Assembly (NCBI RefSeq): GCF_000832305.1
Contig: NZ_CP010537.1
Location: 186,001-250,000, forward strand
Direction of reading: 5' to 3'
Source of the DNA: Cupriavidus basilensis
GTDB lineage: Bacteria; Pseudomonadota; Gammaproteobacteria; Burkholderiales; Burkholderiaceae
DNA: 64,000 nucleotides
The notes under the pieces are model-generated. The model did no database searches, was not told where the DNA came from, and worked only from the letters and a program-made list of their open reading frames with translations. Position numbers and translations under genes: made by a program. Position 1 is the first letter of the stretch; each line of letters begins with the position of its first letter. Positions 20,990 to 42,542 of this stretch are shown one piece after another.

Positions 20990-21054
20990 CCGGCACCGGG
21001 CCGCGGTGCGGCCCGGCATGTGCGCGTTCCGTCCCGGCGCTTACCGGTCATGCC

Positions 21055-21810: not shown

Positions 21811-21951
21811 GCCCGGGCCGTTGTTGCGCGCGTGTTCGCATGTTCGTCTATTCGCGTATTCGTCGTTATTGACGATTCCACAGCCCGGCGAGCGTGGCAA
21901 ACTGACCGGCACGACGCTTCCCCTGCGGGAGCACACAACCGGAGACAGGAC

Positions 21952-23479: not shown

Positions 23480-24316
23480 TCAGTCCGCCGGCCCCAGGAT
23501 CCGTTCGACAAACTCCGGTGCCAGCGCAACGCCAAGGAAGCGCGCGATCTCCACGATCTGCCCATACAGCATCCATTGACCGTGATGCACCGCGCAGCCG
23601 CGTTCGCGCGCGGCCTTCAGCAGCGGGGTATCGCCATCGCGGATCACCGCCTCGCAGACCAGCGTGCCTGCGCCTAGTTGCTCGGCGGGGAGCGGTGTGG
23701 CGTCGGTATCGCGCAAGCCGAGCGCGGTGGCGTTGACGACCACGTCGAAGCCGGCGGGGTTGTTATCGCCGGCGCGGATCGAGACGGTCGGCAGCACGGC
23801 TTTCAGGCTCGCGGCCAGTTCTTCGGCCTTGTCGGCGGAGCGGTTGTAGATGACCAGTTCGGCCGGCTGCTCGCGCGCCATGGCGTAGGCCATCGACTTG
23901 CCGGCGCCGCCGGCGCCAAGCTGCAGCACGCGCTTGCCAGACAGGCTGTGGCCGCGTTCACGCAGGCCGGCGACGAAGCCGTCGCCATCAAAGTTGCCGC
24001 CGACCCAAAAGCCTTTCTGGCGGTCGAAGCGCATCGCATTGACGGAGCCGAGCAGGCGCGCGGCATCGGTCAGTTCGCCACAGATGGCCACCACCGCCTC
24101 CTTGTGCGGCATGGTGACGACGAGGCCTTGCAGGTTTTGCGCGGCCGGCGCGCCGGCGAGGAATGTCTGCAATTGCGCCGCATCCACATGAAAGGGCACG
24201 CACACGGCGTTCAGGCCCTGGCGGGCGACCGAGGCATTGAAGAGTTGCGGCGTGCGCACGTGCGCGATGGGGGCGGCGATGATGCCGACAAGCTGGGTAT
24301 TGCCATCGATCTGCAT
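23480..24316 (-). CDS. aroE: Shikimate dehydrogenase-like protein (AroE family, altered substrate motif)
   Basis: A 278-residue AroE/quinate dehydrogenase-family oxidoreductase. The catalytic Lys is in VTMPHKEA, the active-site Asp in NFDGDGFV, and the dinucleotide loop is LGAGGAGKS. The N-terminal motif that normally reads PIxHSxSP and supplies two serines for the shikimate carboxylate is PIAHVRTP here, so both serines are lost (Val and Thr). The enzyme therefore probably acts on another alicyclic or hydroxy substrate rather than in aromatic biosynthesis. It is the last gene of the 13-gene minus-strand block, 105 bases after gabD. Confidence 0.85.
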   Translation of the reverse strand: MQIDGNTQLVGIIAAPIAHVRTPQLFNASVARQGLNAVCVPFHVDAAQLQTFLAGAPAAQNLQGLVVTMPHKEAVVAICGELTDAARLLGSVNAMRFDRQKGFWVGGNFDGDGFVAGLRERGHSLSGKRVLQLGAGGAGKSMAYAMAREQPAELVIYNRSADKAEELAASLKAVLPTVSIRAGDNNPAGFDVVVNATALGLRDTDATPLPAEQLGAGTLVCEAVIRDGDTPLLKAARERGCAVHHGQWMLYGQIVEIARFLGVALAPEFVERILGPAD

Positions 24317-24421
24317 TGCGGGATTCCGGGTGACGTGGAAGTGGGCGAGGGAGAGGCGAGAGGGAGAAAAGGAAGCGGGAGGCGGGACGGATGCGCGCCG
24401 TCCCGCGGGCATGGCGATGGC

Positions 24422-25870
24422 TCAGATGCCGGCCATGCAGGTGTATTTGATGACCAGATAGTCCTCGATGCCGTAGTGCGAGCCTTCGCGGCCCACGCCC
24501 GATTGCTTGACGCCGCCGAAGGGCGCCACCTCGTTCGAGATCAGGCCGGTGTTGACGCCGACCATGCCGTACTCCAGCCGCTCGGAAACGCGCCACACGC
24601 GGCCGAGATCGCGGGCGTAGAAATAGCTCGCCAGGCCGAATTCCGTGTCGTTGGCCATGGCGACGACTTCGTCCTCGGTCTCGAAGCGGAACAGCGGCGC
24701 GAGCGGGCCGAAGGTTTCTTCACGCGCGACCAGCATGCCGGGCGTCACGTCGGCCAGCACGGTAGGCTCGAAGAACGATTGCCCGAGCGCGTGACGCTTG
24801 CCGCCTTGCAGCACGCGCGCGCCCTTGGAGATCGCGTCGGTGATATGTTCCTCGACCTTGGTCACGGCCTTGCCGTCGATCAGCGGTCCGATGCGCACGC
24901 CGTCTTCCATGCCGTTGCCCACCTTCAGCGCGCGTACCGCCGCGACCAGCTTTTCGGCGAAGGCGTCATAGACCTTGCTGTGCACGTAGAGGCGGTTGGC
25001 GCAGACGCAGGTCTGTCCCGCGTTGCGGTACTTGGACACGATGGCGCCTTCGACGGCGGCATCCAGGTCGGCATCCTCGAACACGATGAAGGGCGCGTTG
25101 CCGCCCAGCTCCATCGAGACCTTCTTGATGGTGGACGCCGTCTGCGCCATCAGGGTACGGCCGACTTCCGTCGAGCCGGTAAAGGTGAGCTTGCGCACCA
25201 GCGGGTTGCTGCTGAGCTCGCCGCCGATGGCGGCGGCCGAGCCGGTGACGACCGACAGCACGCCTGCGGGAATGCCGGCGCGTTCCGCCAGCGCCACCAT
25301 CGCCAGCGCGGTCAGCGGGGTTTGCGAGGCGGGCTTGACCACCATCGTGCAACCTGCCGCCAGCGCCGGGCCGGCCTTGCGCGTGATCATGGCCGCGGGA
25401 AAATTCCACGGCGTGATGGCCGCGCACACGCCCACCGGTTCCTTGGTGACGACGATGCGCTGGTTGCTGACCGGTGCGGGGATGGTCTCGCCGTAGACGC
25501 GTTTGCCTTCTTCGGCGAACCACTCGATGAACGAGGCCGCGTAGCCGATCTCGCCGCGGGCTTCGGCAAAGGGCTTGCCTTGCTCGGCGGTCATGATGCG
25601 GGCGAGGTCGTCCTGGTTCGCCAGCAGCAGTTCGAACCACTTGCGCAGCAGCGCGGAGCGTTCCTTGGCGGTACGCGCGCGCCAGGCCGGCAGGGCGCGG
25701 TTGGCGGCCTCGATGGCCTGGCGCGTTTCGTCGGCGCCCAGCAGCGGCACCTGGCCGACGCGCTCACCGGTGGCGGGATTGGTCACGTCGATATGACGCT
25801 GCGCATCGGTCCAGCGGCCATCGATATAGCACTGCTGGCGCAGCAAGGAGGGGTCTTGGAGTTGCAACAT
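24422..25870 (-). CDS. gabD: NAD(P)-dependent succinate-semialdehyde dehydrogenase (GabD-like)
   Basis: A 482-residue aldehyde dehydrogenase. The catalytic Cys lies in AGQTCVCANR, the general base Glu in VSMELGGNAP, and the cofactor segment is ITPWNFPAAMITRK. The length and the C-terminal PFGGVKQSGVGREGSHYGIE match GabD, which oxidises succinate semialdehyde to succinate. In this operon it may oxidise a different semialdehyde made from the imported substrate. It follows the SDR gene by 139 bases, a gap partly filled by a 12-base tandem repeat. Confidence 0.88.
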   Translation of the reverse strand: MLQLQDPSLLRQQCYIDGRWTDAQRHIDVTNPATGERVGQVPLLGADETRQAIEAANRALPAWRARTAKERSALLRKWFELLLANQDDLARIMTAEQGKPFAEARGEIGYAASFIEWFAEEGKRVYGETIPAPVSNQRIVVTKEPVGVCAAITPWNFPAAMITRKAGPALAAGCTMVVKPASQTPLTALAMVALAERAGIPAGVLSVVTGSAAAIGGELSSNPLVRKLTFTGSTEVGRTLMAQTASTIKKVSMELGGNAPFIVFEDADLDAAVEGAIVSKYRNAGQTCVCANRLYVHSKVYDAFAEKLVAAVRALKVGNGMEDGVRIGPLIDGKAVTKVEEHITDAISKGARVLQGGKRHALGQSFFEPTVLADVTPGMLVAREETFGPLAPLFRFETEDEVVAMANDTEFGLASYFYARDLGRVWRVSERLEYGMVGVNTGLISNEVAPFGGVKQSGVGREGSHYGIEDYLVIKYTCMAGI

Positions 25871-25973
25871 GGTCTGGTTCCGGTTCCGTAGCGATGTTGG
25901 GGGGATTCGGCGCAGCGCCGCTGACGGCAGGTTAGCAGGATCCGGCGATCTCGTTTGGCCGCCGGAGGGATGA

Positions 25974-26021
25974 TCAAGCCGCGATTCAAGCCGCGATTCA
26001 ACCTGCGATTCAACCCGCGAT
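25974..26021 (-). repeat. Four 12-base tandem repeats covering the SDR stop codon
   Basis: On the minus strand the unit ATCGCGGGTTGA (Ile-Ala-Gly-stop) occurs four times in a row with one or two changes. The first copy is the true C terminus of the SDR gene and the other three follow it. This is a tandem duplication of the last three codons plus stop. Confidence 0.85.
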
Positions 26022-26750
26022 ATACAGCCCGCCATTGACGTGCAGCACCTCGCCGGTGACAAAGCTGGCCGCATCGCTGCACAGGAAGCCGATGGCGGTG
26101 GCGATCTCGCGGGGGTGGCCGAGGCGCTTGAGCGGTGTCTGCTCGACGGAGTCGGCGCCGCGTTTCTGGATCAGCTCGGTGGTCATCGGTGTCTCGATCA
26201 CGCCCGGCGATACAGCATTGACGCGGGTGCGCGGCCCGAGTTCCCGCGCCAGGCTGCGGGTGAGGCTGAGCAGGCCACCCTTGGAGGCCGAATAGTGCGC
26301 ATTGTAGTAAGCGCCCCGGTGCGCCGCCACCGACGTCAGGTTGACGATGGCGCTGTTCTCGCGCAGCGCGGGAATGGCGCGGCGCACAAGATAGAACACG
26401 CCATCGAGATTGATCGACAGCGTCTGCCGCCATTGCGCGTCGCTCATCTCGGCCACTGGCTGGGCCTGGTACAAGCCTGCCGACGGCACCAGGAAATCGA
26501 TGCCGCCGAAGCGCGCCTGCGCGAGCGCCACGGCGCGCTCGCAATCGTCGGGGCTGGCGGCGTCCATGCGCATCGTGGCGATGCGCTCACCGCTCGGGTC
26601 CAGCTCGCGGGCAAATCCGGCGACGCCGGCTTCGTCCAGATCCGTCAGTACCAGGTTGGCGCCTTGCGCCAGGAACAGTTTGGCCGTCTCACGGCCGATG
26701 CCGCCGTTGGCCCCGGTCAGCAGCAGCGTGCGTTGATCGAAGTTGTACAT
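26010..26750 (-). CDS. Short-chain dehydrogenase/reductase
   Basis: A 246-residue classical SDR with the TGANGGIGRETA cofactor loop, Asp at the end of beta-2 (LTDLDE), SAG in place of the usual NAG, catalytic Ser in LTSVAAHRG, and YSASK. The C terminus VTGEVLHVNGGLYIAG is typical. It has a GGGAGACAAC ribosome-binding site and lies 14 bases after the E3 gene. It presumably oxidises or reduces a hydroxyl or keto group of the pathway intermediate. The substrate is unknown. Confidence 0.87.
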   Translation of the reverse strand: MYNFDQRTLLLTGANGGIGRETAKLFLAQGANLVLTDLDEAGVAGFARELDPSGERIATMRMDAASPDDCERAVALAQARFGGIDFLVPSAGLYQAQPVAEMSDAQWRQTLSINLDGVFYLVRRAIPALRENSAIVNLTSVAAHRGAYYNAHYSASKGGLLSLTRSLARELGPRTRVNAVSPGVIETPMTTELIQKRGADSVEQTPLKRLGHPREIATAIGFLCSDAASFVTGEVLHVNGGLYIAG

Positions 26751-26764
26751 GTTGTCTCCCGTGT

Positions 26765-28165
26765 TCAGATATGCAGTGCGCGCCCGTAGGCCGCGAGCAC
26801 GGCTTCGTGCATGGCCTCGGACATGGTCGGGTGCGGCAGGACAGCGGCCATCAGGTCGGCCTCGGTGGTCTCCAGCGTCTGCGCGATGGCGTAGCCCTGG
26901 ATCATCTCGGTGACCTCGTCGCCCACCATATGGGCGCCGAGCAGTTCGCCGCTGCCTGCGTCGAACACCACCTTCACCAGGCCGGCAGTGCTGCCCATGG
27001 CAATGGCCTTGCCGTTGCCGGCGAAAGGGAACTTGCCGACCTTGACGGGATGGCCGCGCTCCCTGGCCTGTGCCTCGGTGAGTCCCACGCTCGCCACTTG
27101 TGGATGGCTGTAGGTGCAGGCCGGAATTCGTGTGGCATCGAGCGCATGCGGATGCAGCCCGGCAATCCGCTCCACGCAGATCACGCCTTCGTGGCTGGCC
27201 TTGTGCGCCAGCCACGGCGGGCCCGCCACGTCGCCGATGGCATACACGCCGGGCTCATCGGTGCGGCCGAAGCCGTCGGTGACGATATGCGTCTTCTCGA
27301 CCTTGACGGCGGTCCGCTCCAGGCCGAGGTCTTCCACGTTGCCGACAATGCCTGCGGCCACCAGCACGACGTCGACGTCGACTCTCGCGCCGCCGGACTT
27401 GCCGCCTTGCAGCTCGATGGACCAGCCCTGCCCCTTGCGCTCAGCGCTCTGGATGCCGGTGCCCGTATGCAGCACGATGCCTTCCCGGGTCAGGCTGCTT
27501 GCCACCTGCGCGCAGATGTCGGCATCTTCCACCGGCAGGATGCGCTGCGCCATCTCCACCACCGTCACCTCGGCACCCACCGCGCGATAGAAGCTGGCGA
27601 ACTCGATGCCGATGGCACCGGCGCCAACGATCAGCATGCGCTTTGGCACCACGGGCGGCGCCAGCGCGTCGCGATAGGTCCAGACCGTCTTGCCGTCCGC
27701 CGGCAGCGCGGGCAGCTGGCGGGCGCGTGCGCCGGTGGCGAGCAGGATGTGGGCGGACGACACGATGCGCGTCTTGCCATCCGTCGCGGTGACTTCTAGC
27801 TTGCCCTTGCCCGCCAGCCGTCCGTGGCCGTTGAGCACGGTCACGCCGTTCTTCTTCATCAGGTGGGCCACGCCCTTGTTGAGCTGCGCGGCCACCGCGC
27901 GGGAGCGGGCCACCATGGCCGGCAGGTCGGCGGTGGGCGGCGCGGCATGCACACCGTAGGCCGCTGCGTCCTTGACCAGCCGCAGCACATCGGCGCTGCG
28001 CAACAGCGCTTTGGTGGGAATGCAGCCCCAGTTCAGGCAGATCCCGCCCAGGTGCGCTTTCTCGACCAGCGCGGTTTTCATGCCTAGCTGCGTGGCGCGG
28101 ATGGCGGCCACGTAGCCGCCCGGGCCGCCGCCCACGACGATCAGGTCAAATGAGGAGTTCGCCAC
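26765..28165 (-). CDS. lpdA: Dihydrolipoyl dehydrogenase (E3)
   Basis: A 466-residue FAD-dependent lipoamide dehydrogenase that reoxidises the lipoyl groups of the E2 and reduces NAD. Visible features are the FAD motif VVGGGPGGYVAAIRA, the redox disulfide GGICLNWGCIPTKALL, the NAD motif VGAGAIGIEFASFYRAVGAE, and the C-terminal His-Glu motif HPTMSEAMHEAVL. The start is a GTG at 28165 with AAGGA upstream; an ATG five bases further upstream is out of frame. Ten bases separate it from the E2 gene. It may also serve AcoC, as no E3 lies in the aco cluster. Confidence 0.94.
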   Translation of the reverse strand: MANSSFDLIVVGGGPGGYVAAIRATQLGMKTALVEKAHLGGICLNWGCIPTKALLRSADVLRLVKDAAAYGVHAAPPTADLPAMVARSRAVAAQLNKGVAHLMKKNGVTVLNGHGRLAGKGKLEVTATDGKTRIVSSAHILLATGARARQLPALPADGKTVWTYRDALAPPVVPKRMLIVGAGAIGIEFASFYRAVGAEVTVVEMAQRILPVEDADICAQVASSLTREGIVLHTGTGIQSAERKGQGWSIELQGGKSGGARVDVDVVLVAAGIVGNVEDLGLERTAVKVEKTHIVTDGFGRTDEPGVYAIGDVAGPPWLAHKASHEGVICVERIAGLHPHALDATRIPACTYSHPQVASVGLTEAQARERGHPVKVGKFPFAGNGKAIAMGSTAGLVKVVFDAGSGELLGAHMVGDEVTEMIQGYAIAQTLETTEADLMAAVLPHPTMSEAMHEAVLAAYGRALHI

Positions 28166-28175
28166 GTCATGGTCC

Positions 28176-29408
28176 TTAGATCAGCATCGACAAGGGGTTT
28201 TCAAGCAGGCGCTTGAACGCGGCCAGCCATTGGGCGGCCAGCGCGCCGTCGATGGCGCGGTGGTCCACCGAGAGCGTGCAGCGCATGACCTGCCCGGCCT
28301 TCAGCGCGCCGCCTTCCACCACCGGCACTGCTTGCGTGGCGCCCACGGCAAGGATGGCGGCCTGCGGCGGATTGATGATGGCGGAGAACTCGGACACGCC
28401 GAACATGCCCAGGTTGCTCACGCTGAAGCTGCCCCCCTGGTACTCCTCGGGGCGCAGCTGCGAAGCGCGCGCACGCGTGGCCAGGTCGGCGATTTCGGCG
28501 CTGATGACGGACAGCGGCTTCGTATCGGCAGCGCGCACGATGGGGGTGATCAAGCCGGCGTCCGTGGCTACCGCTACCGCGATATCGGCCTGCGGATACT
28601 GGCGCATCGCCGTATCGGTCCAGCCCACGTTGGCCGCCGGCACCTCACGCAAGGCGACCGCGACGGCGCGCACGATGAAGTCGTTGACCGAGATCTTGCG
28701 CGGCGCATTCGCGTTTATCTGCGCGCGCAGCGCCAGCAAGGGCTCCATGCGGCAATCCGCCGTGAGGTAGAAATGCGGGATGGTGGCCTTGCTCTCGCTC
28801 AGCCGGCGCGCGATGGTGCGGCGCATATTACTGTGCGGGATTTCGGTGAATGCATCGCTGGCCTTGGCTTGCGGCGCGGCGGGGCGCGCAACGGCAGGTG
28901 CGCTGGCAGCGGCCGCAGCGGTGGCGGCCTGCTCGATATCGCGCTTGACGATGCGGCCATTGGGCCCGCTGCCGCGCAATGCCGCCAGGTCCAGTCCGCG
29001 CTGCGCCGCCAGGCGGCGGGCCAGCGGGCTGGCGAAGATGCGTGTGGCTTGCGCCGAGGCGGCTTTGGCAGCCACCATGGCCTGGCCAGCGGATTCCGCC
29101 TTGGCCGGCGGCACTTGCGCGCCGCCACCCGCCGCCGCGATCAGCGCATCGATATCCGCGCTGGTTTCGCCATTGACCAGCAGCACGCCGATGGGCGCGC
29201 CCACTTCCACGTCCTGGCCGGCCGCCACCAGGCGGCGGGCGAGCACGCCGGCCGAATCGGCATTGAGCTCGACCACGGCCTTGTCGGTTTCGATTTCGGC
29301 GATGCACTCGCCCACGGCAATCGTATCGCCTTCGTTCTTGGTCCACGCTTGCAGCGTGGCCTGGGTGGCATTGGCCGCCACCTCGGGCATGCGTAGCAGG
29401 GTGGCCAT
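28176..29408 (-). CDS. 2-oxoacid/acetoin-type dehydrogenase E2 (dihydrolipoamide acyltransferase)
   Basis: A 410-residue E2. One N-terminal lipoyl domain carries Lys43 in EIETDKAVVE. An Ala/Pro-rich linker, a peripheral-subunit-binding domain (ASPLARRLAAQRGLDLAAL, about 126-160) and a CAT-like catalytic domain ending in SVDHRAIDG (His383) follow. Unlike AcoC, it has the classical acyltransferase domain. It belongs with the fused E1 at 29,941 and the E3 at 26,765. The acyl group transferred is unknown. Confidence 0.93.
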   Translation of the reverse strand: MATLLRMPEVAANATQATLQAWTKNEGDTIAVGECIAEIETDKAVVELNADSAGVLARRLVAAGQDVEVGAPIGVLLVNGETSADIDALIAAAGGGAQVPPAKAESAGQAMVAAKAASAQATRIFASPLARRLAAQRGLDLAALRGSGPNGRIVKRDIEQAATAAAAASAPAVARPAAPQAKASDAFTEIPHSNMRRTIARRLSESKATIPHFYLTADCRMEPLLALRAQINANAPRKISVNDFIVRAVAVALREVPAANVGWTDTAMRQYPQADIAVAVATDAGLITPIVRAADTKPLSVISAEIADLATRARASQLRPEEYQGGSFSVSNLGMFGVSEFSAIINPPQAAILAVGATQAVPVVEGGALKAGQVMRCTLSVDHRAIDGALAAQWLAAFKRLLENPLSMLI

Positions 29409-29409
29409 G

Positions 29410-29895
29410 TCAGGCGGTCCTCAGTTGCAGGTCGGGGCGGTAGGCGGCGATATCCGCGTACTGCACGATCTCCAGCACATTGCCTTCGGGATCGCGGCAG
29501 AATGCCAGGTAGGTGCCGGGGCGCACTTCGATGCGCTGCGGGCCGGTCAGGAACTCCACGTCGGCAGCGAGCAGCTTGTCGACGGTGGCCTGGATGTCGT
29601 CCACGATAAACGTGAGGTAGGTGGAGTTGGCCTTGTCGAGGATGTACTCGGGCGCTGCCGCAGGTGCGGGCGCTTGCACCGGGGCCAGCAGCTTGATGCG
29701 CTCGCCATGGTTCGTCTGCAGGCGCACGGCGGTATAGCCGCCGGCGTGCATGGCGGCCTGCATGGCGCTTGCCGCAGGCACGGCGACTTCGCTGACGAAG
29801 GCGAAGCCAAGCACTTGCTCGTAGAAGCGGCGCATGCGCGGCAGGTCGCGCACGGCGATGCCGACCTCCAGGGGAACAATCATGTTCAGGGTCAT
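29410..29895 (-). CDS. VOC (glyoxalase/dioxygenase) superfamily protein
   Basis: A 161-residue protein with paired beta-alpha-beta-beta-beta modules. The first starts at VPLEVGIAVRDLPRMRRFYE and the second at TYLTFIVDDIQATVDKLLAA, ending in RDPEGNVLEIVQY with the metal-ligand Glu. VOC proteins include glyoxalases, methylmalonyl-CoA epimerases and ring-cleaving dioxygenases. This one sits between E1 and E2 genes, one base from the E2 start, so it likely handles an intermediate of the same pathway, for example as an epimerase or C-C lyase. The exact role is unknown. Confidence 0.85.
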   Translation of the reverse strand: MTLNMIVPLEVGIAVRDLPRMRRFYEQVLGFAFVSEVAVPAASAMQAAMHAGGYTAVRLQTNHGERIKLLAPVQAPAPAAAPEYILDKANSTYLTFIVDDIQATVDKLLAADVEFLTGPQRIEVRPGTYLAFCRDPEGNVLEIVQYADIAAYRPDLQLRTA

Positions 29896-29940
29896 CGGTA
29901 TTCCTTGGGTTCGTTCAGTTGGCCGGGCGGGCTTCCGGAC

Positions 29941-32130
29941 TCACGCCGCGCCCTTGTCGCGCATCACCTGGCGCAGGCCCTCGGCCACTTCCTCGGTGCG
30001 GGCGGCGGCGGCGCGCTCCAGCACCTTGGAGATGCTCGGCGCGGCCTCCGCGCCGGTCACACGCTGCACGGGCTGGTCCAGCCAGTCGAAGTAGCGGCGC
30101 TGGATCTCGTCGGCCAGCCATCCGCCGTAGGAGGTGCCCCGCGCGCCTTGTTCCACGATCAGTACGTTGTTGGTCTTCCTTACGCTCTGCGCGATGGTGT
30201 CCCAGTCAATGCTGGCGCGGTCCAGCCAGCGCAGGTCGATCACCTCGGCATCGATGCCGGTCTGCTCCACCGCTTCGAGCGAGTGGCCGACCATCGACAG
30301 ATACGTGATAACCGTGACGTCGCTGCCGCCGCGGCGTACCGCCGCCTTGCCCACAGGCAGGTGATAGTCGAAGTCATCCACGGGGCCCACGCCCGAGGCG
30401 TTGTACAGGTCCACATGCTCGATCACCAGCACCGGGTCCTTGCACGCCAGCGCGGTGTTCATCAGGCCCACGTAGTCGAACGGCGTGGAAGGCGCCACGA
30501 TGCGCCAGCCCGGGTTGGTGGCGAAGATGCCGGCCGGGTCCATCGAGTGCTGCGAGCCATAGCCCGTGCCCATCGCCACCTTGGTGCGCAGCACCAGCGG
30601 CACGTCGCTCTCGCCGCCGAACATGTGGCGTGCCTTGCCGATCTGGTTGAAGACCTGGTCGGCCGCCACCCACATGAAGTCCGGGTACATGAATTCCACA
30701 ACCGGCTTGTAGCGGCCATCCAGCGCCAGCCCGCCACCCAGGCCCACGAACGCGTTCTCGCTGATCGGCGTGCCCAGCACACGGTCGGGGAAGTTGTCGC
30801 GCAGGCCGCGCGTGGCGCCGTTGGTGCCACCCTTGAGGCGGTGCACGTCCTCGCCCATCACCACCACCGACGGATCGGTCTCCATGCGCCGTTGCATGAC
30901 GTCCGCCACCACGTCGATGAACTTGCGCTGGTCCAGCTTGCCGCAGAAGCCGGCCTCCTCCTCGCAGCGCAGGCCTGCCAGCTCGCCCAGGTCGCCACGG
31001 ATGCCCACGTCGCGGAAGTCCGGGCTCGGCCACAGCTCAGGCCGGATGCGGCGCTTGCCCGGCTTGCCGGAAGGATCGGCTTCGGTCAGTGCGGCCATCG
31101 CGTCGCGCATGGCTTGCTTGATGCGCTCACGCAGCGCGGCGACGTCGTCGGCGCTGATCAGGCCGCGCGCCTGCATGCGGCGCGCCATCAGTTCGAGCGG
31201 GTCGCGCGCGCGCCATTGCTGCTCTTCGTCCTTGCTGCGGTAACCGAAGGCGCTCCCCGGGAAGGGGCCGTTCTGGTGGAAGAAGCGGTAGAGATCGGCT
31301 TCGATGATCGTGGGGCCCTTGCCGGCGCGCATGTGCGCGAGCGCTTCGCGCGTGGCCAGGTACACCGCCAGCGGGTCCATGCCGTCGACCTTCCAGCTCG
31401 GGATATTGAAGCCCATGCCGCGCGCGGACAGGCGCGGCTCGGCGGTGGACTCTTCCACTGTGGTGGAGACGGCGTAGCGGTTGTTCTCGATAAAGAAGCA
31501 CAGCGGCAGCTTCCATGCGGCGGCCAGGTTCATGGTCTCCAGCACCGAGCCGATATTGACCGCGCCGTCGCCGAAGTAGGTGATGGCGACCGCATCCGTG
31601 CCCGCATGCCGGTGCGACCACGCCGCGCCCGCGGCCATGGGCACGCCGCCGCCCACGATGGCATTGGTGCCCAGCGCGCCGGCTTCGGCCCATTGCAGGT
31701 GCATGGAGCCGCCACGGCCTTTGCAATAGCCCTGCGCCAACCCCAGGATTTCCGCCAGCGTGCGTTGCAGCAGCGTTTGCACGTCCGCCGGCAGCGGCGC
31801 GCGCGGGTCGATGCCGTTGGGCGCGAGGTAGCCCAGCGCCTTGGAGATGAACTGGTGATGCCCGCGATGCGAGCCATTGATCTGGTCCGCGCCGGTCAGC
31901 GGCACGATGGAGCCGGCGGCGCCGCCTTCCTGCCCGATGCTGGAGTGCGCCGGGCCGTGGACCAGGCCTTCGGCGGCGAGTTCGAGCACGGCTTCCTCGA
32001 AGCCGCGGATCAGGTGCAGGTGGCTCAGCAGGGTGCCGAGCAGGGCCGGGTCGGCCTTGGCCCAGTCTTCATCGGTGGTGCGCAGTTCCACCCATTCGGC
32101 GGCGGGGCGCAGGGCGCTACGTTCAGACAT
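29941..32130 (-). CDS. Fused E1 alpha-beta thiamine-diphosphate dehydrogenase
   Basis: A 729-residue protein that joins an acetoin/2-oxoacid dehydrogenase alpha subunit (residues about 30-345) to a beta subunit (about 395-715). The alpha half has GRGGSMHLQWAEAGALGTNA and the TPP motif from FGDGAVNIGS (GDG at 187-189) to IENNRYA (NN at 216-217). The beta half has VVVMGEDVHRLKGGTNGATR, GTPISENAFVGLGGGLAL and VEFMYPDFMWVAADQVFNQI. Fusion of the two chains is seen in some E1 enzymes, but the acetoin E1 encoded in this window (AcoA/AcoB) is split. It should decarboxylate a 2-oxoacid or cleave a diketone/acyloin and pass the acyl group to the E2 at 28,176. Confidence 0.92.
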   Translation of the reverse strand: MSERSALRPAAEWVELRTTDEDWAKADPALLGTLLSHLHLIRGFEEAVLELAAEGLVHGPAHSSIGQEGGAAGSIVPLTGADQINGSHRGHHQFISKALGYLAPNGIDPRAPLPADVQTLLQRTLAEILGLAQGYCKGRGGSMHLQWAEAGALGTNAIVGGGVPMAAGAAWSHRHAGTDAVAITYFGDGAVNIGSVLETMNLAAAWKLPLCFFIENNRYAVSTTVEESTAEPRLSARGMGFNIPSWKVDGMDPLAVYLATREALAHMRAGKGPTIIEADLYRFFHQNGPFPGSAFGYRSKDEEQQWRARDPLELMARRMQARGLISADDVAALRERIKQAMRDAMAALTEADPSGKPGKRRIRPELWPSPDFRDVGIRGDLGELAGLRCEEEAGFCGKLDQRKFIDVVADVMQRRMETDPSVVVMGEDVHRLKGGTNGATRGLRDNFPDRVLGTPISENAFVGLGGGLALDGRYKPVVEFMYPDFMWVAADQVFNQIGKARHMFGGESDVPLVLRTKVAMGTGYGSQHSMDPAGIFATNPGWRIVAPSTPFDYVGLMNTALACKDPVLVIEHVDLYNASGVGPVDDFDYHLPVGKAAVRRGGSDVTVITYLSMVGHSLEAVEQTGIDAEVIDLRWLDRASIDWDTIAQSVRKTNNVLIVEQGARGTSYGGWLADEIQRRYFDWLDQPVQRVTGAEAAPSISKVLERAAAARTEEVAEGLRQVMRDKGAA

Positions 32131-32188
32131 TTGAGAATCCTTGATTACCGTTCGATGGTGCTTTCAATCGTGTTGGGGGACTGCGTGC

Positions 32189-33013
32189 TCAGAAGCCGTC
32201 GGCGGTCCAGCCGCCATCGGAGACCAGCGCATGGCCGGTGATGAACGCGGCCGAGTCCGAGGCCAGGAAGAGGGCGACTTCCGCCATCTCCTCAGGTGCG
32301 CCAAAGCGGCGCAGCGGCGTGCGTGCCAGCAGCGCCTCGCCGTCGATGGCCTTGCTGGCCAGCAGCGTTTCCATCAGCGCGGTGCTGGTGTAGCCCGGGC
32401 AGACCGCGTTTACGCGGATGTTGTACTCGGCCCATTCCGCCGCCAGCGACTTGGTCAGCGACACCACGCCAGCCTTGGCGGCGCAGTACGCCAGGCGCCG
32501 TGCGGACGAGGCCAGGCCCCACATCGACGCGGTGCTCAGGATGGAGCCGCCGCCCTGGCGCACCATGCGGCGCGCCGCCGCCTGCGTGCAGAAGAACACG
32601 CCGGAGAGGTCGATATCGATGGCGCGGCGCCAGTCGTCGGGGGTCAGTTCCAGCGACGGCTTGTTCATCGAGATGCCGGCGTTGTTGAGCAGGATGTCGA
32701 TGCGGCCGAAGCGGGCCTCGGTGGCGGCGCAGGCTTGCTCCACGGCATCGGGGTCGGTGATCGAAGCCTTCACGATTTCGACCTGCACTTCCGGGTAAGC
32801 CGCTTCCAGCTCCGCCTTGGCGCTGGCGAGTCCTTGCGCATCCAGGTCCAGCAGCATCAGGCGCGCGCCATGCCGGGCAAAGCCATGCGCCATCGCGCGG
32901 CCGATGCCGCTGGCGCCGCCGGTGTTGAGCACGACCTTGCCGGCCAGGCCGGGGTAGCTGGCGCGCGCAAAGGGCTGCGCATTCGGGTATCCAATAGGCA
33001 AAGAGGTGCTCAT
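32189..33013 (-). CDS. Short-chain dehydrogenase/reductase
   Basis: A 274-residue classical SDR. The cofactor loop reads NTGGASGIGRAMA, with Asp after beta-2 (LLDLDAQG) pointing to NAD(H). NNAG, catalytic Ser in STASMWG and YCAAK (Tyr and Lys) are present. An N-terminal extension of about 20 residues precedes the fold. Its ATG overlaps the livF stop by four bases, so it is coupled to the transporter genes, linking uptake directly to the first oxidation or reduction step. Confidence 0.88.
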   Translation of the reverse strand: MSTSLPIGYPNAQPFARASYPGLAGKVVLNTGGASGIGRAMAHGFARHGARLMLLDLDAQGLASAKAELEAAYPEVQVEIVKASITDPDAVEQACAATEARFGRIDILLNNAGISMNKPSLELTPDDWRRAIDIDLSGVFFCTQAAARRMVRQGGGSILSTASMWGLASSARRLAYCAAKAGVVSLTKSLAAEWAEYNIRVNAVCPGYTSTALMETLLASKAIDGEALLARTPLRRFGAPEEMAEVALFLASDSAAFITGHALVSDGGWTADGF

Positions 33014-33744
33014 ACGGCTAACCAGTCCTTCAGAAGTTGGGTATTGGAGGTGAGTTGTTCGGGCGTGCCTTCAAAGACGATGCGGCCGTGGCCCATCACG
33101 CAGACGCGGCTCGATACCTTCAGCGCGATGGCGAGCTTTTGCTCCACCAGCACCACCGAGACGCCCCGGCGGTGAATGTCCTGGATGGCCTCGCCGACGA
33201 CCGTCACGATCTTTGGCGCGAGGCCTTCGGTGGGCTCGTCGATCAGGATCACCAAGGGGTTGCCCAGCAGCGAGCGGCACATGGTCAGCATCTGCTGCTC
33301 GCCGCCGGAAAGACTGCCGGCCTTGGTGTTGCGGCGCTCCTTGAGGCGCGGGAAGTAATCGAACATCTGCTCGAAGGTCCATTGCGGCGCGCCTTCGGTG
33401 GCGCGCTGCTCGCCCATGCGCAGGTTTTCGTCCACGGTCAGGTTGGCGAAGACCTCGCGCTCTTCCGGCACATAGGCAATGCCGCGCCGGCAGATCGCAT
33501 ACGATTGCGCGCCGGCCAGATCGCGCCCGCGTAGCCTGATGTGGCCAGCGCTTGGCGGCACCAGGCCCATGATGGCCTTGAGCGTGGTGGAGCGGCCCGA
33601 GCCGTTGCGGCCCAGCAGGCTTACCACTTCGGCCCGCCCGACGTGGAAATCCACGCCGTGCAGGATGTGGCTCTTGCCGTAGTGCGCGTGCAGTCCTTGC
33701 ACGCTCAGCAGCGCATCGGCGCCTTGTATGGACTGCGCGCTCAT
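33010..33744 (-). CDS. livF: HAAT-family ABC transporter ATPase, LivF-type (Walker A Lys to Arg)
   Basis: A 244-residue nucleotide-binding subunit. The Walker A loop is GRNGSGRS at residues 45-52, with Arg51 where Lys is normally invariant (codon CGC). The signature LSGGEQQ and Walker B VILIDEP are intact. As is usual for LivF, the switch position is Gln (VLVEQK) rather than His. It pairs with LivG to power import through LivHM. Start and stop overlap the neighbouring genes by four bases each. The consequences of the Walker A change are covered under findings. Confidence 0.92.
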   Translation of the reverse strand: MSAQSIQGADALLSVQGLHAHYGKSHILHGVDFHVGRAEVVSLLGRNGSGRSTTLKAIMGLVPPSAGHIRLRGRDLAGAQSYAICRRGIAYVPEEREVFANLTVDENLRMGEQRATEGAPQWTFEQMFDYFPRLKERRNTKAGSLSGGEQQMLTMCRSLLGNPLVILIDEPTEGLAPKIVTVVGEAIQDIHRRGVSVVLVEQKLAIALKVSSRVCVMGHGRIVFEGTPEQLTSNTQLLKDWLAV

Positions 33745-34499
33745 ACGGTGACCTCCTCGCCCAGATAGGCTTCCTTGACGCGTGCGTTGTTGCGGATCTC
33801 GTCGGGCGTGCCGGTGGCGACGATCTCGCCGTAGACCAGCACGCTGATGCGGTCGCTGAGCGAGAACACCACGTCCATGTCGTGCTCCACGATCAGCAGC
33901 GTGCGGCCCTGCGCGATCTCGCGGATCAGGCCGGCGGTGTAGTCGGTTTCCTCCTGCGACATGCCCGCCATCGGCTCGTCGAGCATGATGACCTTCGGGT
34001 CCGAGGCCAGCGTCATGGCGATCTCCAGCGAGCGCTGCTCCGAATACGACAGCTCGCCGGCGATGGTTTGCGCGCGCCCGGCCAGCCGCACCTGTTCGAG
34101 CAGGTGCTGGGTCTCGTCGCGCACGGCACGCACCTTGTGGGCGAACTTCCACAGCGTGTATTGCAGGCCGTGGCGCCGCATCACGGCCAGGCGCAGGTTC
34201 TCGAAAACCGTGAGGCCCGCGAAGATATTGGTGATCTGGAACGAGCGCGCCAGGCCGCGATGGTTGATGCTCTGCGGCGACAGGCCATGGATCGGCTCGC
34301 CGTTGAGCAGGATCTCGCCCTTGCTCAGGGGCAGGCGCCCGGAGATCAGGTGGAACAGGGTGGACTTGCCGGCGCCGTTCGGGCCGATCAGCGCGTGGCG
34401 TTCGCCGCTGACGAGATCGAGGTCCACGCCGCGGATGATGTCGACGTCACCGAAGGATTTGCGCAGTCCGCGCAGGGAGAGCATCGCTTGCGTGTTCAT
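33741..34499 (-). CDS. livG: HAAT-family ABC transporter ATPase, LivG-type
   Basis: A 252-residue nucleotide-binding subunit. Walker A GPNGAGKST (39-47), the LivG-type RSFQITNIFAGLTVFEN segment, Walker B VIMLDEP and the switch His in IVEHDMD are intact. The signature reads LSYSEQ where LSYGEQ or LSGGQ is usual, replacing the critical Gly by Ser. It overlaps livM and livF by four bases on each side, showing tight translational coupling. Confidence 0.93.
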   Translation of the reverse strand: MNTQAMLSLRGLRKSFGDVDIIRGVDLDLVSGERHALIGPNGAGKSTLFHLISGRLPLSKGEILLNGEPIHGLSPQSINHRGLARSFQITNIFAGLTVFENLRLAVMRRHGLQYTLWKFAHKVRAVRDETQHLLEQVRLAGRAQTIAGELSYSEQRSLEIAMTLASDPKVIMLDEPMAGMSQEETDYTAGLIREIAQGRTLLIVEHDMDVVFSLSDRISVLVYGEIVATGTPDEIRNNARVKEAYLGEEVTV

Positions 34500-35791
34500 G
34501 CCGGTTTCCTCCGGACGTTGGTGGCCGTGGTGGCGGGGGCGTCGATGGCGGCGGTGGTGTCCTTCAGGTGCAGCCAGCGGCCGTTGGCCAGGCGGGCCGT
34601 GGCGATGCCGGCCACCAGCAGCGCCGCGGGCGCCAGCCAGGTCAGCGGCGAGATGGGATCCCACTCGCGCCCAAACAGCGCAATCGCGGGCCAGCCTCCA
34701 CCATTCAGGGCAGCCATGGAGCGGTAGTCTTGCGAGAAGAAGCGCTGCAGCATCTCCACCGTGAATACCGTGCCGCCTGCGAGCAGCAACGTGCCGATGA
34801 CGAACGCCAGCGCTATCGGCAGCAGCGCACGCAGGCCATAGGTCTTGCTGTGCGTGGCGAAGGACTTGATCAGCCCGGCGAGGCCCGTCGGCAAGAACAT
34901 CATCACCAGCACGAACACGATGCCCTGGTACAGCAGCCACGAGCGCGTCAGGTCCGATACCGCATAGCCGAAGAAGGTCATCACCGCCGCGCCCAGTGCC
35001 GGGCCGAGGAAGATCTTCACGCCGCCGATATAGCTGTTGAGCACCACCGCGGCGGAGGCGGATGACTCGAACACGACGTAGTTGGCCGCCTCCATGTTGA
35101 GTGCCTGCAGCGCGCCGGCGATGCCAGCGAACATGGCCGAGACGGCAAACACCAGCACGCCGAGGCGGTGCGTGTCATAGCCGAGAAAGCGCAGGCGGTT
35201 GGCGTTCTCCCGCAGGCCCAGCGTCAGGCGGCCCACCGGAGTCAGCGTGAACAGGTACAGCAGCGCCAGCGACAGCAGCACCCAGAACAGGGTCAGGTAG
35301 TAGACCTGGTTGCTGTCGCCGAAGGCGAGGCCCCATGCCGGCATGCGCATGGTGGACAGGCCTGCTTCGCCGCCGAACCAGCCCTTCAGGTGCGGCGCCA
35401 GCGAGTGCAGCAGTTCGGCCAGCGCCAGCGTGATCATGGCGAAGTAGACGCCGGTACGCTTGGTGGCGAACCAGCCGGCGGCCAGGCCGGCAACCAGGCC
35501 CATGGCGCCGCCGGCCAGCGGCAACAGCGGCGTGGGCAGCAGGCCGTTGCCGCCGAAGGCGTTCATGGCGTGCACGGTGGCAAAGCTGCCGATGCCGAAG
35601 TACGCCGCATGGCCAAACGACAGCATGCCGCCCTGGCCGCTGAGCAGGTTGAACGAAGCCGCGAACAGCACCGCGATCAGCATCTGGATGGATGCGTTGA
35701 CCAGCGATTGCGACAGCACCATCGGCAGCGCCAGCAGTGCGCCTGTGCCGAGCAGCAGCAAGGTCTTCCGCGTGTTGGAGAGGTGGGTCAT
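34496..35791 (-). CDS. livM: HAAT-family ABC transporter permease, LivM-type
   Basis: A 431-residue inner-membrane permease with about ten membrane segments. The family core is recognisable as FNLLSGQGGMLSFGHAAYFG near the N terminus, followed by GRLTLGLRENANRLRFLGYD (the cytoplasmic loop that contacts the ATPases) and the later SYIGGVKIFLGPALGAA. The C-terminal part is longer than in E. coli LivM core segments and ends in a hydrophilic tail. It forms the translocation pore with LivH. Confidence 0.92.
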   Translation of the reverse strand: MTHLSNTRKTLLLLGTGALLALPMVLSQSLVNASIQMLIAVLFAASFNLLSGQGGMLSFGHAAYFGIGSFATVHAMNAFGGNGLLPTPLLPLAGGAMGLVAGLAAGWFATKRTGVYFAMITLALAELLHSLAPHLKGWFGGEAGLSTMRMPAWGLAFGDSNQVYYLTLFWVLLSLALLYLFTLTPVGRLTLGLRENANRLRFLGYDTHRLGVLVFAVSAMFAGIAGALQALNMEAANYVVFESSASAAVVLNSYIGGVKIFLGPALGAAVMTFFGYAVSDLTRSWLLYQGIVFVLVMMFLPTGLAGLIKSFATHSKTYGLRALLPIALAFVIGTLLLAGGTVFTVEMLQRFFSQDYRSMAALNGGGWPAIALFGREWDPISPLTWLAPAALLVAGIATARLANGRWLHLKDTTAAIDAPATTATNVRRKPA

Positions 35792-35793
35792 GG

Positions 35794-36735
35794 TTACTCC
35801 TTCTCGCCCATCAAGCCCGACGGACGGACCAGCAAGATCAGCAGCATCAGCGCGAACGGGATCGTCCCGGCCAGGCTGGAGAGTTTCAGGGTCATCAGCC
35901 CCGCGGCTTCCTCGGCCCAGGCGCCCGCCCCGGCCAGGGCCAGCAGGTCGGCCAGGCTGCGATCGATGCCGACCGAGAACGACGTGATCAGCCCGATCAG
36001 CAGCGAGGCGAGCATGGCGCCCTCCAGCGAGCCCAGGCCGCCCACTACCACCACGACGAAGACCATCACGCCGAGTTCCAGCGCCATGTTCGGGTTGGTG
36101 GTGTAGAACGCGCCCGCCACCGCGCCGGCCAGGCCCGCCAGCGCCGCGCCGATGCCGAACACGCCCATGAAGACCAGCGGCACGTTGTGGCCCAGCGCCT
36201 CGGCCATGCGCGGCTTGTAGATCGCCGAGCGCACCACGATGCCGACCCGGGTGCGCGTGAGCAGGAGGTAGATCACGGCGAACATGGCCACGGCGATGCC
36301 GCCCATGAACACGCGATAGAAGGGGTAGGAGGACACGCCCAGGCGGAAGGCCGCGAAGTCCAGCGACGCCGGGATGCGGTAATCCACCGGGAAGTTGCCG
36401 AAGAACAGCTTGATCAGCTCGGCAATGATGAAGGACAGGCCGAAGGTCAGCAGCAGTTCGTGCGCGTGGCCGTGGTGATGGACGCGGCGCAGGAAGAACC
36501 GCTCCACCGCCACCCCGACCAGTCCGACCAGGATCGGCGAAACCACGATGGCCGGCCAGAAGCCGATCGTGCCTTGCAGCGCATAGGCAAAGTAGGCGCC
36601 CAGCATGTAGAACGACGCATGGGCGAAGTTGAGCACGCCCATCATGCCGAAGATGAGGGTCAGGCCAGCGGAGACCATGAACAGCAGCAGGCCGTAGATG
36701 GTGCCGTTGAGCAATGAGACGACGAGGTATTCCAT
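35794..36735 (-). CDS. livH: HAAT-family ABC transporter permease, LivH-type
   Basis: A 313-residue permease with about eight membrane segments, starting LLNGTIYGLLLFMVSAGLTL and MMGVLNFAHASFYMLGAYFA, both hallmark LivH segments. GLGSLEGAMLASLLIGLITS is the conserved late segment. It has an AAGGAAG ribosome-binding site and ends two bases before livM begins. With LivM it would import a branched-chain-amino-acid-like or aromatic/alicyclic carboxylate. Confidence 0.93.
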   Translation of the reverse strand: MEYLVVSLLNGTIYGLLLFMVSAGLTLIFGMMGVLNFAHASFYMLGAYFAYALQGTIGFWPAIVVSPILVGLVGVAVERFFLRRVHHHGHAHELLLTFGLSFIIAELIKLFFGNFPVDYRIPASLDFAAFRLGVSSYPFYRVFMGGIAVAMFAVIYLLLTRTRVGIVVRSAIYKPRMAEALGHNVPLVFMGVFGIGAALAGLAGAVAGAFYTTNPNMALELGVMVFVVVVVGGLGSLEGAMLASLLIGLITSFSVGIDRSLADLLALAGAGAWAEEAAGLMTLKLSSLAGTIPFALMLLILLVRPSGLMGEKE

Positions 36736-36851
36736 GAGGCTTCCTTGGAACGAGCCTGTGCGGCCAACTGGCGCATGGCCGTACTTGCCGGCGCCCGCGC
36801 CGCGGCGGCGCGAGCGTGGCTGATGTTGCTAGGGTGGCTTGGACAGGGGAA

Positions 36852-38099
36852 TCAGCTGGGGCGCTGCATCTTGCAGCTGGCCTGAGCCGGCGTGGCGGCC
36901 TCGGCGGCGGAGAAGGTCTTGACCGGCTTGAAGCCCATGTCGGTGCCGTCGACCTTGAACCTGGCGTCCTTGGCGACCACGGATACCACCATCGGCAGCA
37001 GCACCTGGTGATCGGCGGCGCGCATGCTCATCTCGCCCAGCGGCGATCCGACCTTGGCGGCTTCGAGCGCCTTGGCCAGTGCGCTGGTGTTGAGCTTGCC
37101 GCCTTCCGGCTTCACGGTCTTGAGCGCCTCGCCCAGCATCTGCACGGCGAACACCGTCTGTGGCTCGATGTAGGCGGGCATATGGCCCTGCCTGGCCTTG
37201 AAGTCGCTGGCAAAGCGCTCACTGTCGGCGCCACCCGCCTCGGCATTGAAGGGGTGGGCAACATAGTGGCCCAGGGCCACGTCGGCGGCGTTGCCGATAT
37301 TGCCCGGCTGGTCGAGGAACACGGTGGCGAAGCGCGTCTTCAGGCCGGCCGCCTTGCTGGCCTTCATCAACAGCAGCAGGTCGTTGGACCAGTTGCCGGT
37401 GATCACGCTGTCTGCTTTGGCAGCAGCGATCTTGGCGACGTAAGGCGAGAAGTCCTGCACCTTGTTGACGTCATGCAGCGTCTTTTCCACCACCGTGTAG
37501 CCGCCGGCGGCGGCGTAGTCGCCGATGGCCTTTTCCATGTCGATGCCCCAGGAGTAATTCTGGTTGATCGAGTACACGCGGGTGCCCAGCGCGTGGAGCG
37601 GCTTCATCGCACCGACCAGCGCCTTGACGCGGATCTGCGCATTGGTGGCGAACTTGAAATGGTAGAAGTGGCACTTCTCGCCAGTCAACTCCATCGCCTC
37701 GCCGCCGACGTTCATGAACAGGATTTCCTTGCCCGGATTGCGCAGGTTGAACTTGCGCACGTCCTCGGTGATCTGGCCGGACACGGCCGACGACGAGCCT
37801 TGCATGACGATCTGGGCGCCATCGGCAACGGCCGCCTTCAGCTTGTCCGCCGCGCCTGCGGGGCCGCCCTGGTTGTCGTACTCCACCAGTTGGAGCGGCT
37901 CGCCGTTCCAGCCGCCGGTGGCGTTGATCTTGTCGATCGCATAGCGCGCCGCTGCGCGGAACATCAGGCCGGTGGATGCCTGCGGGCCGGACAGCGTCTC
38001 GACCAGCGCAATCTTCACCGGCGCCGCCGATGCCGTGCCCGCCAGCACGGAGAGTGCCGCGGCTGCGAACAAAGGACGGGTAATGCGGCTACCGCTCAT
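36852..38099 (-). CDS. livK: HAAT-family ABC transporter substrate-binding protein
   Basis: A 415-residue periplasmic type-I binding protein. A signal peptide (LFAAALSVLAGTASA, cleavage near residue 26) is followed by VKIALVETLSGPQASTGLMF and DNQGGPAGAADKLKAAVADG, typical of LivK-like receptors for aromatic and branched-chain carboxylates. The ATG at 38099 is preferred over 38129 because AGGAGA lies seven bases upstream. It is the first gene of the minus-strand block and faces the GntR gene across a 426-base control region, so it and the downstream genes are probably induced by the imported compound. Confidence 0.92.
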   Translation of the reverse strand: MSGSRITRPLFAAAALSVLAGTASAAPVKIALVETLSGPQASTGLMFRAAARYAIDKINATGGWNGEPLQLVEYDNQGGPAGAADKLKAAVADGAQIVMQGSSSAVSGQITEDVRKFNLRNPGKEILFMNVGGEAMELTGEKCHFYHFKFATNAQIRVKALVGAMKPLHALGTRVYSINQNYSWGIDMEKAIGDYAAAGGYTVVEKTLHDVNKVQDFSPYVAKIAAAKADSVITGNWSNDLLLLMKASKAAGLKTRFATVFLDQPGNIGNAADVALGHYVAHPFNAEAGGADSERFASDFKARQGHMPAYIEPQTVFAVQMLGEALKTVKPEGGKLNTSALAKALEAAKVGSPLGEMSMRAADHQVLLPMVVSVVAKDARFKVDGTDMGFKPVKTFSAAEAATPAQASCKMQRPS

Positions 38100-38159: not shown

Positions 38160-38193
38160 TGGTCTGACCTGTGTTTAAAGTGGTCTGACAGGT
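38160..38193 (-). promoter_or_regulatory. Paired GntR operator-like sites upstream of the liv operon
   Basis: TGGTCTGACCTGT (38160-38172) and TGGTCTGACAGGT (38181-38193) are direct repeats 21 bases apart, two turns of the helix. The first contains the perfect palindrome GGTCTGACC, which resembles the TGGT…ACCA operators of FadR/PdhR-class GntR regulators. They lie 60-95 bases before the livK start, well placed for repression. Confidence 0.65.
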
Positions 38194-38402
38194 TTACTAT
38201 AGGGAGATGGGCGGCGGTCGTCAACGGCGACTTGCGCGCCATGCGGGTTTCTACTGAGCGTCCGATCGGACGTGTATCCGCGTAGCGGAACGAGGGGCTT
38301 ATACCGTTGTGGAGCTTGGCTTACGGACGAATAACGGATGCCGGCGCCGCTTCGTGCTGGTACATTCCACACGTTTCATGCGCGCTAAGACGTGCTACAT
38401 TG

Positions 38403-38415: not shown

Positions 38416-38525
38416 ATTTAAGATCGAGCGCCAGCCAGAGGCTGGCTGGCGCCAGGGAGCCCGTATTGAACAAGACCGTGCCCGGTGCCGCGGCGCCGCC
38501 GCCCACCCAGCGCCCGGAGGGAACC

Positions 38526-40879: not shown

Positions 40880-40893
40880 GACCTCGTCCTTTC

Positions 40894-40908: not shown

Positions 40909-40995
40909 TGATCGGGACATACTCGGTCTTGGACACCCTGGATGTCAAGCCACATACTGCTTCTCAACGTATTCCATACTTGGCAGACCCCCAGC

Positions 40996-42517: not shown

Positions 42518-42542
42518 CCGAATCCATTTGGAGGAGACTCTG

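Follow-up and report, generated by a model that had tools for sequence, protein, structure and literature searches.

A conserved thirteen-gene operon for a possible hydroxy-acid pathway in Cupriavidus basilensis

Introduction

Which nutrient does a bacterium take up and break down when it strings an importer, several dehydrogenases and a complete E1-E2-E3 complex together on a single strand? This question is raised by Cupriavidus basilensis (genome of 8.42 Mb on two contigs), in a 64,000-nucleotide stretch of contig NZ_CP010537.1 (positions 186,001 to 250,000) that we call the window and within which all coordinates are counted. There, the minus strand carries a row of thirteen genes that begins at 38099 and ends at 23480. 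The original prediction saw in them a pathway for an alicyclic or branched hydroxy or keto acid that matched none described; our searches of the open-access literature likewise turned up no published pathway built on these genes, which is weak evidence of absence. The operon is an uncharacterised variant of catabolic operons of the acetoin/2-oxo acid dehydrogenase type, built of known enzyme types, and its core is conserved across phyla.

Thirteen genes on one strand

The open reading frames between 23480 and 38099, together with the identification of their products by domain or ortholog, bear out the predicted strand and gene order. Ten of the thirteen proteins were scanned with both Pfam and NCBIfam, which agree, and permease 1 with Pfam alone; the ATPase assignments come from the proteins' own sequences and from annotated orthologs. 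From the first gene to the last, the operon reads as follows.

36852..38099 (-): SBP, HAAT periplasmic binding protein of 415 aa (Peripla_BP_6; 559 bits to PDB 4xfk/7jfn)
35794..36735 (-): HAAT permease 1, LivH type (BPD_transp_2)
34496..35791 (-): HAAT permease 2, LivM type, 431 aa (BPD_transp_2)
33741..34499 (-): HAAT ATPase 1, LivG type (own sequence; Caballeronia ortholog annotated as ABC ATPase)
33010..33744 (-): HAAT ATPase 2, LivF type (own sequence; Caballeronia ortholog annotated as ABC ATPase)
32189..33013 (-): SDR1, short-chain dehydrogenase (adh_short_C2)
29941..32130 (-): fused alpha/beta E1 dependent on thiamine diphosphate (ThDP), 729 aa (E1_dh, Transket_pyr and Transketolase_C)
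29410..29895 (-): protein of the VOC fold that lacks the usual metal histidines (Glyoxalase domain)
28176..29408 (-): E2, with lipoyl (Biotin_lipoyl), E3_binding and acyltransferase (2-oxoacid_dh) domains
26765..28165 (-): E3, dihydrolipoyl dehydrogenase with a GTG start (TIGR01350, 535.5 bits against a cutoff of 408.8)
26010..26750 (-): SDR2, short-chain dehydrogenase (adh_short_C2; scanned as 26010-26762)
24422..25870 (-): GabD-type succinate-semialdehyde dehydrogenase (SSADH; NF008415, 866.6 bits against a cutoff of 828)
23480..24316 (-): AroE-like dehydrogenase with an altered substrate site (Shikimate_dh_N)

The tight spacing that had been claimed holds at seven of the twelve junctions. 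Permease 2 and ATPase 1, ATPase 1 and ATPase 2, and ATPase 2 and SDR1 overlap by 4 bases each, and short gaps separate VOC from E2 (1 base), permease 1 from permease 2 (2), E2 from E3 (10) and E3 from SDR2 (14, if SDR2 starts at the ATG at 26750, as we assume). It does not hold at the other five, where the gaps measure 116 (SBP/permease 1), 58 (SDR1/E1), 45 (E1/VOC), 139 (SDR2/GabD) and 105 bases (GabD/AroE-like), the last two depending on starts of our choice for GabD and the AroE-like gene, for which earlier in-frame starts exist.

Conservation in other bacteria

Is this arrangement more than chance? It is, because the genes recur in other genera with little change in their order. The importer, the dehydrogenases and the E1-E2-E3 complex are conserved together with E1, which bears out the predicted unit, and we hold it to be almost certain that the thirteen genes are one catabolic unit. 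These counts come from the best 80 of 589 confirmed relatives, 52 of which have at least 9 kb on either side of E1 and are here called full loci (the identity cutoffs were our own choice). SDR2 and E2 each accompany E1 in 51 of the 52 full loci, SDR1 in 47, and E3 and a FadR-type regulator in 40 each. Next come the VOC gene (33; the different VOC of actinobacterial loci was left out of this count), the importer (30 for each of its five genes), the AroE-like gene (28) and GabD (9).

Among the matches listed, the closest named E1 relatives are mostly Cupriavidus. Named records with the kit in other arrangements come from Caballeronia, Pseudomonas, Phaeobacter, Rhodovulum, Paracoccus, Rhodococcus, Streptomyces and others. 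Among the plasmid records, for example, Caballeronia has the operon minus GabD, with AroE directly after SDR2; Phaeobacter has the order FadR, HAAT, SDR, SDR, E1, E2, AroE, SSADH, E3, SDR; and Rhodovulum has another HAAT, then FabG, AroE, GMC, SSADH, FadR, SDR, SDR, E1, E2. In Pseudomonas oryzihabitans, OprD, FadR, SDR, E1, VOC, E2, E3 and gabD stand in a row, with AroE, NIPSNAP and SDR2 on the far side of a sugar-type gene block. The order is lpdA, SSADH, E1, E2 in Rhodococcus and SSADH, VOC, E1, E2 in Streptomyces. Salipiger carries RidA, an amidase and the AroE-like gene ahead of E1 and E2, which places an AroE-like step beside E1. We read 13 plasmid regions with an E1 identity of at least about 61%: an SSADH is annotated near E1 in six (two of them Rhodovulum), and in seven no gene bears that name. 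Loci without this HAAT importer can have an MHS-like or ACS-like carrier near the core (both score under the cutoffs of the curated models), which suggests that the substrate is an anion.

The distribution is patchy. E1 was found in 10 of 60 genomes of the same genus (its own included) and, with two or three candidates scored per genome, in 3 of 398 genomes of a phylum sample (own included), in 1 of 369 of a class sample (its own) and in 11 of 385 genomes of the class of another genome, G123, three of these 11 at 70% identity at least. The contexts of alphaproteobacterial E1s (49-73% identity) are too varied to name a substrate. The thirteen genes look like a single regulated unit that imports and degrades a hydroxy-acid, and the recurrence of its core in very different bacteria points to a widespread nutrient pathway.

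Two observations were made along the way. A second branch of fused E1s, 46-54% identical, occurs in Alphaproteobacteria (loci L100, L117, L119 and L143-L148), where its partners are others, such as a class III aminotransferase, a DUF1537-type kinase, CaiB, 5-oxoprolinase-like genes (named from sequence, like the VOC next to E1 in L143 and L144) or BKACE. On Rhizobium jaguaris plasmid pRCCGE525b (L122, 13500-14800), SDR2 and VOC homologues lie in pieces, unannotated, amid genes for ectoine uptake and degradation; since this record is absent from the E1 matches at 1e-100, they may be what is left of a unit that has decayed.

E1, E2 and E3

What kind of complex do E1, E2 and E3 form? All three parts that a 2-oxo acid dehydrogenase complex requires are present, including a lipoyl E2. 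In a tree, 16 fused E1s fall into a single clade (100/100), separate from the three other E1 pairs of the genome; these outgroups, its own AcoAB and two pyruvate-type pairs, are three long branches that limit deeper claims, and no branched-chain E1 of the host genome was in the comparison. For both pyruvate-type pairs, it is the alpha subunits that pass TIGR03182 and TIGR03181, the two NCBIfam models of pyruvate E1-alpha. The fused E1 stays below the cutoffs of all four pyruvate E1 models that it matched (TIGR03182, 248 of 394; TIGR03181, 195 of 411; NF006667, 229 of 321; NF008854, 229 of 454), and no branched-chain E1 model stands among the NCBIfam matches listed for it. Its two parts are 36% identical to AcoA and 33% to AcoB.

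Thirteen close E1s share the motifs HGPAHS, [ST]HR[GA]HHQF and FHQNG..PGSAF. The last two occur in none of the six other rows of the alignment, and HGPAHS in one, a more distant Agrobacterium E1. E2 scores above the pyruvate-type model TIGR01349 (475 against a cutoff of 445) and far below the AcoC model NF011457 (82.5 bits against 307), which the nearby AcoC passes with 489. Public E1 entries bear the names 2-oxoisovalerate or alpha-ketoacid dehydrogenase, transferred by homology. Several E1 orthologs are publicly named MFS transporter, an evident misannotation.

AroE-like, SDR, GabD and VOC proteins

The AroE-like protein appears to be a dehydrogenase whose substrate site has changed. Its Lys and Asp, which we take to be the catalytic residues, are kept in all 40 aligned sequences. 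At the Ser-x-Ser site, presumably the carboxylate site of shikimate dehydrogenases, 38 of the 40 were readable: the first residue is V in 38 of 38, the second K or R in 37 and the third T in 37 (S in L085). Shikimate itself is thus an unlikely substrate, since none of the 38 has Ser-x-Ser. The protein also scores below the NCBIfam cutoffs for shikimate and quinate dehydrogenases, and its nearest solved relative, PDB 4k28, has a similar V-K-S-P motif in the same place.

Both SDRs match models of hydroxycyclohexanecarboxylate dehydrogenase below cutoff. SDR2 reaches 354 bits to PDB 5t5q, and a solved cyclohexanol dehydrogenase is one of its 29 similar matches. At the end of the SDR2 gene (window 25974-26021), a 12-base tandem repeat (ATCGC.G.TTGA), present four times, repeats the stop codon in frame. 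A parallel pairing of an SDR with an E1 complex is found on plasmid pSYMBR3459 of Paraburkholderia phenoliruptrix (L123), where an SDR2 homologue (55%) clusters with an acetoin-type E1 alpha/beta and its E2; the cluster also includes genes for a lipoate ligase, an aldehyde dehydrogenase and a sugar ABC transporter.

As its score above shows, GabD exceeds the cutoff of the SSADH equivalog model. The VOC protein is modelled with confidence in the VOC fold (mean pLDDT 94.6), and the structures most like it are a large number of VOC proteins that differ in function, with no single match. At the positions of H/E/H/E, which we take to be the metal-ligand pattern of VOC metalloenzymes, our alignment places E10, K68, Y93 and E142; five actinobacterial VOCs near E1 keep H/E/H/E.

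The importer and its binding protein

The importer is a complete five-component set of the LIV type (HAAT). Its binding protein is not a usual one of that class: it scores 71 bits, far under the curated LIV binding-protein cutoff of 477, and in a low-identity alignment it has Ala, Glu and Phe at the positions of LIVBP Ser79, Thr102 and Glu226, presumably ligand positions in that numbering. Over 390 residues it reaches 559 bits to PDB 4xfk. Both 4xfk and 7jfn are Brucella ovis LBP, reported with acetate in the cleft of one crystal and, in the other, which had been soaked with threonine, nitrate rather than threonine (PMC11376275). This rules out that 4xfk is PA4913, the Pseudomonas protein for which small amino acids are the ligands in thermal-shift assays (PMC6829864).

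A possible pathway

How could these parts work together? We tentatively favour, at somewhat less than an even chance, a scheme in which a hydroxylated carboxylate is imported, oxidised and split in an acetoin-like manner to an acyl-CoA and a C4-type semialdehyde. The HAAT importer would take up a hydroxylated carboxylate rather than a usual amino acid. SDR1, SDR2 and the AroE-like enzyme, from families of NAD(P)-dependent oxidoreductases, would oxidise its hydroxyls (secondary alcohols) to an alpha-hydroxyketone or 1,2-diketone, which the VOC protein might bind, epimerise or isomerise. With its ThDP domains, the fused E1 would then attack the keto group and split the neighbouring C-C bond, as in acetoin-type chemistry; the acyl group would move by way of E2 to CoA, and E3 would reoxidise the lipoamide. 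The other fragment would be a C4-type semialdehyde, for example succinic semialdehyde, which GabD would oxidise to the acid on its way to the tricarboxylic acid cycle. Taken together, acetoin-like cleavage and the GabD assignment suggest the reaction R-CO-CH(OH)-CH2-CH2-COO- -> acyl-CoA + succinic semialdehyde.

A bolder version, which we consider distinctly doubtful, is an undescribed cross-phylum pathway with a new class of acyl-CoA-forming ThDP complex: a carboxylated acyloin or 1,2-diketone would be the specific substrate of its fused E1, supplied by a non-shikimate AroE-fold dehydrogenase, with the VOC protein as ketol isomerase or epimerase and succinic semialdehyde released.

Several findings weigh against the cleavage scheme, and the scarcity of GabD is the gravest. 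GabD is present in just 9 of the 52 full loci and missing from 43, so the semialdehyde step must often be carried out by enzymes encoded elsewhere, or be a different one; the AroE-like gene is missing from 24 and the VOC gene from 19, and neither is universal. Nor does the SSADH name prove succinic semialdehyde, because the host genome has four further GabD homologues (55-72% identity) and the aldehyde dehydrogenases named SSADH in Rhodovulum and Rhodococcus score far under the SSADH cutoffs. The E1 loop FHQNGPFPGSAFGYR is unlike that of acetoin E1 and also unlike both pyruvate-type loops; since it resembles neither E1 type, the sequence does not prove cleavage over decarboxylation. The relatives' neighbours diverge as well, including an amidase with RidA, a hydantoinase, a sugar-acid dehydratase, ectoine genes and an LhgO-like gene. 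Of what had been predicted, the co-conserved unit stands, as do the enzyme families and domains for SDR oxidation followed by acyl-CoA formation, whose reactions are suggested by family membership; the GabD step keeps its NF008415 assignment and is weaker than claimed, and the alicyclic or branched substrate and the acetoin-like cleavage are conjectural.

Other ways to read the operon

If E1 does not cleave an acyloin, it may decarboxylate. The complex could act on an unusual 2-oxo acid, made from a 2-hydroxy acid by the SDRs and the AroE-like enzyme (or, in Ochrobactrum, by an LhgO-like one), yielding acyl-CoA and CO2 while GabD oxidises a terminal aldehyde of the chain. We see this as a serious if rather unlikely alternative: E2 lies above TIGR01349 (475 against 445), the public E1 names are those of 2-oxo acid dehydrogenases, and a gene beside E1 in Ochrobactrum is called LhgO-like from its start sequence. 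Such names, however, come by homology transfer, and E1 falls outside both pyruvate-type pairs (on long branches, with no branched-chain E1 among the rows). A pantoate-like substrate might conceivably fit the decarboxylation scheme. That the complex opens a ring is quite unlikely in our judgement. Here, in line with the alicyclic idea of the original prediction, an alicyclic di- or polyhydroxy acid would become a cyclic 1,2-diketone or ketol, which E1 would open to a CoA thioester and an aldehyde within one molecule, the aldehyde then going to GabD. Inositol IolD and cyclohexane-1,2-dione hydrolase offer parallels, an acetolactate-synthase-like ThDP enzyme sits in the Paracoccus cluster, and the hydroxycyclohexanecarboxylate and cyclohexanol dehydrogenase matches of the SDRs point the same way. 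Yet these ring matches are no stronger than many others, the regions of relatives that we read hold no recurring ring-specific enzyme, and Ser-x-Ser, the carboxylate site for shikimate, is replaced in the AroE-like protein. Resorcinol-type quinone cleavage and pantoate catabolism are further routes that might be compared. A BKACE gene matching a phloroglucinol-pathway equivalog was considered as proof and rejected, the gene trio lying near only 2-3 of the 80 loci.

A different doubt concerns the far end of the operon: GabD and the AroE-like gene could be separate units trailing an eleven-gene operon and tell nothing about the pathway. The 139 and 105 bases that precede these two genes, the nine full loci with GabD next to E1 and the Caballeronia order, with no GabD between SDR2 and AroE, would all agree with this. 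We still think it unlikely, for separate lineages also have AroE-like and SSADH-named genes in the vicinity of E1, in other arrangements, and simple scans gave no promoter-like or terminator-like site in these two gaps. Finally, an importer of the LIV class, and many database names to match, might suggest an ordinary operon for the uptake and oxidation of branched-chain amino acids. This is very improbable: no transaminase or acyl-CoA dehydrogenase appears among the thirteen in the Pfam and NCBIfam scans, the binding protein misses the LIV cutoff by far and differs at the LIVBP ligand positions given above, and the Brucella relative's cleft reportedly contained nitrate and not threonine after the soak (PMC11376275).

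Regulation

How is the operon switched on? A FadR-type regulator diverges from the SBP gene and probably controls the operon. Three features lie in or beside the intergenic region.

38493..39230 (+): FadR/GntR (FCD) regulator, divergent from the SBP gene (GntR and FCD domains)
38196..38224 (-): sigma-70-like operon promoter TTGACG-17-TATAGT (promoter scan)
38160..38189 (-): two GTCAGACC boxes (GTCnGACC), 21 bases apart and after the promoter, a candidate FadR-type operator

The promoter scan as a whole did not exceed chance (2 found, 1.6 expected), so the weight of the promoter rests on its conservation. Read by eye, TATAGTAAACCTGTC[A/T]GACCAC is kept in the window and in loci L009, L011, L103 and L104, and TATATT followed by the box in L012, L106 and L112; L105 yielded no sequence at this place. 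The box occurs in 14 of 54 SBP upstream regions, many of them from close relatives, where single-base shuffles predict 1.3, and in 11 of the 14 regions known to have the divergent FadR/SBP layout (it is absent from L014, L043 and L116). Genome-wide, TGGTCnGACC has 25 forward and 19 reverse matches against 99 and 99 for a reversed control; the pattern is not rare, so that FadR binding is a prediction. The five larger gaps of the operon contain neither a GTCnGAC box nor a terminator match (8 matches overall, 8.1 in shuffles). A scan for an inverted repeat common to all FadR-flanking regions yielded GC-rich, lineage-bound matches only. In the Achromobacter loci and many more from Alcaligenaceae, it is SDR2 rather than SBP that FadR diverges from, and a shared operator looked for in that layout was not found.

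Relation to known systems and surroundings

The nearest known system is also the nearest neighbour. At 15745-20081 (+), 3-8 kb away, lies a classic acetoin operon acoXABC (AcoX-like, AcoA, AcoB and AcoC), followed by an LplA-like ligase (20791-21810, +) and a CaiB-type CoA-transferase (21832-23109, +). It converges on the thirteen-gene operon, so that two different E1/E2 systems stand within 25 kb. Both combine a ThDP E1 and a lipoyl E2 in a catabolic setting, but here E1 is fused and in its own clade rather than grouped with AcoA/AcoB, E2 belongs to the pyruvate type, carries an E3-binding domain and falls short of the AcoC model, E3 is the operon's own, and an importer, SDRs, a VOC protein and an AroE-like enzyme are added. 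Pyruvate and other 2-oxo acid dehydrogenase complexes share the E1-E2-E3 architecture and the E2 model TIGR01349, whereas here alpha and beta are fused, E1 stays under the cutoffs and the FHQNG..PGSAF loop is not in the genome's two pyruvate-type pairs. With the AroE/QuiB shikimate and quinate dehydrogenases, the AroE-like protein shares the fold family and the catalytic Lys and Asp, and it differs in its V-(K/R)-T in place of Ser-x-Ser, its sub-cutoff scores and its catabolic operon setting. The binding protein, for its part, resembles Brucella ovis LBP (559 bits), which is annotated as a LIV-type binding protein and is reported with acetate and nitrate in the cleft (PMC11376275).

What would the substrate tell us, if it were found? 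It would give a function to an E1 family of thousands of clusters (7404 at E 1e-60 or better among 7999 public candidates scored, more distant relatives included), to an AroE-like subfamily currently annotated as shikimate dehydrogenase and to a binding protein of the LIV type, a close relative of which has a solved structure. Database names such as 2-oxoisovalerate dehydrogenase and MFS transporter for E1 would be corrected at the same time.

Beyond FadR, the window continues at 39965-44709 with a LysR regulator, a muconate cycloisomerase, a muconolactone isomerase, a TctC-like binding protein, a PcaD-like hydrolase (these two named by their sequences only) and a FitA-like antitoxin.

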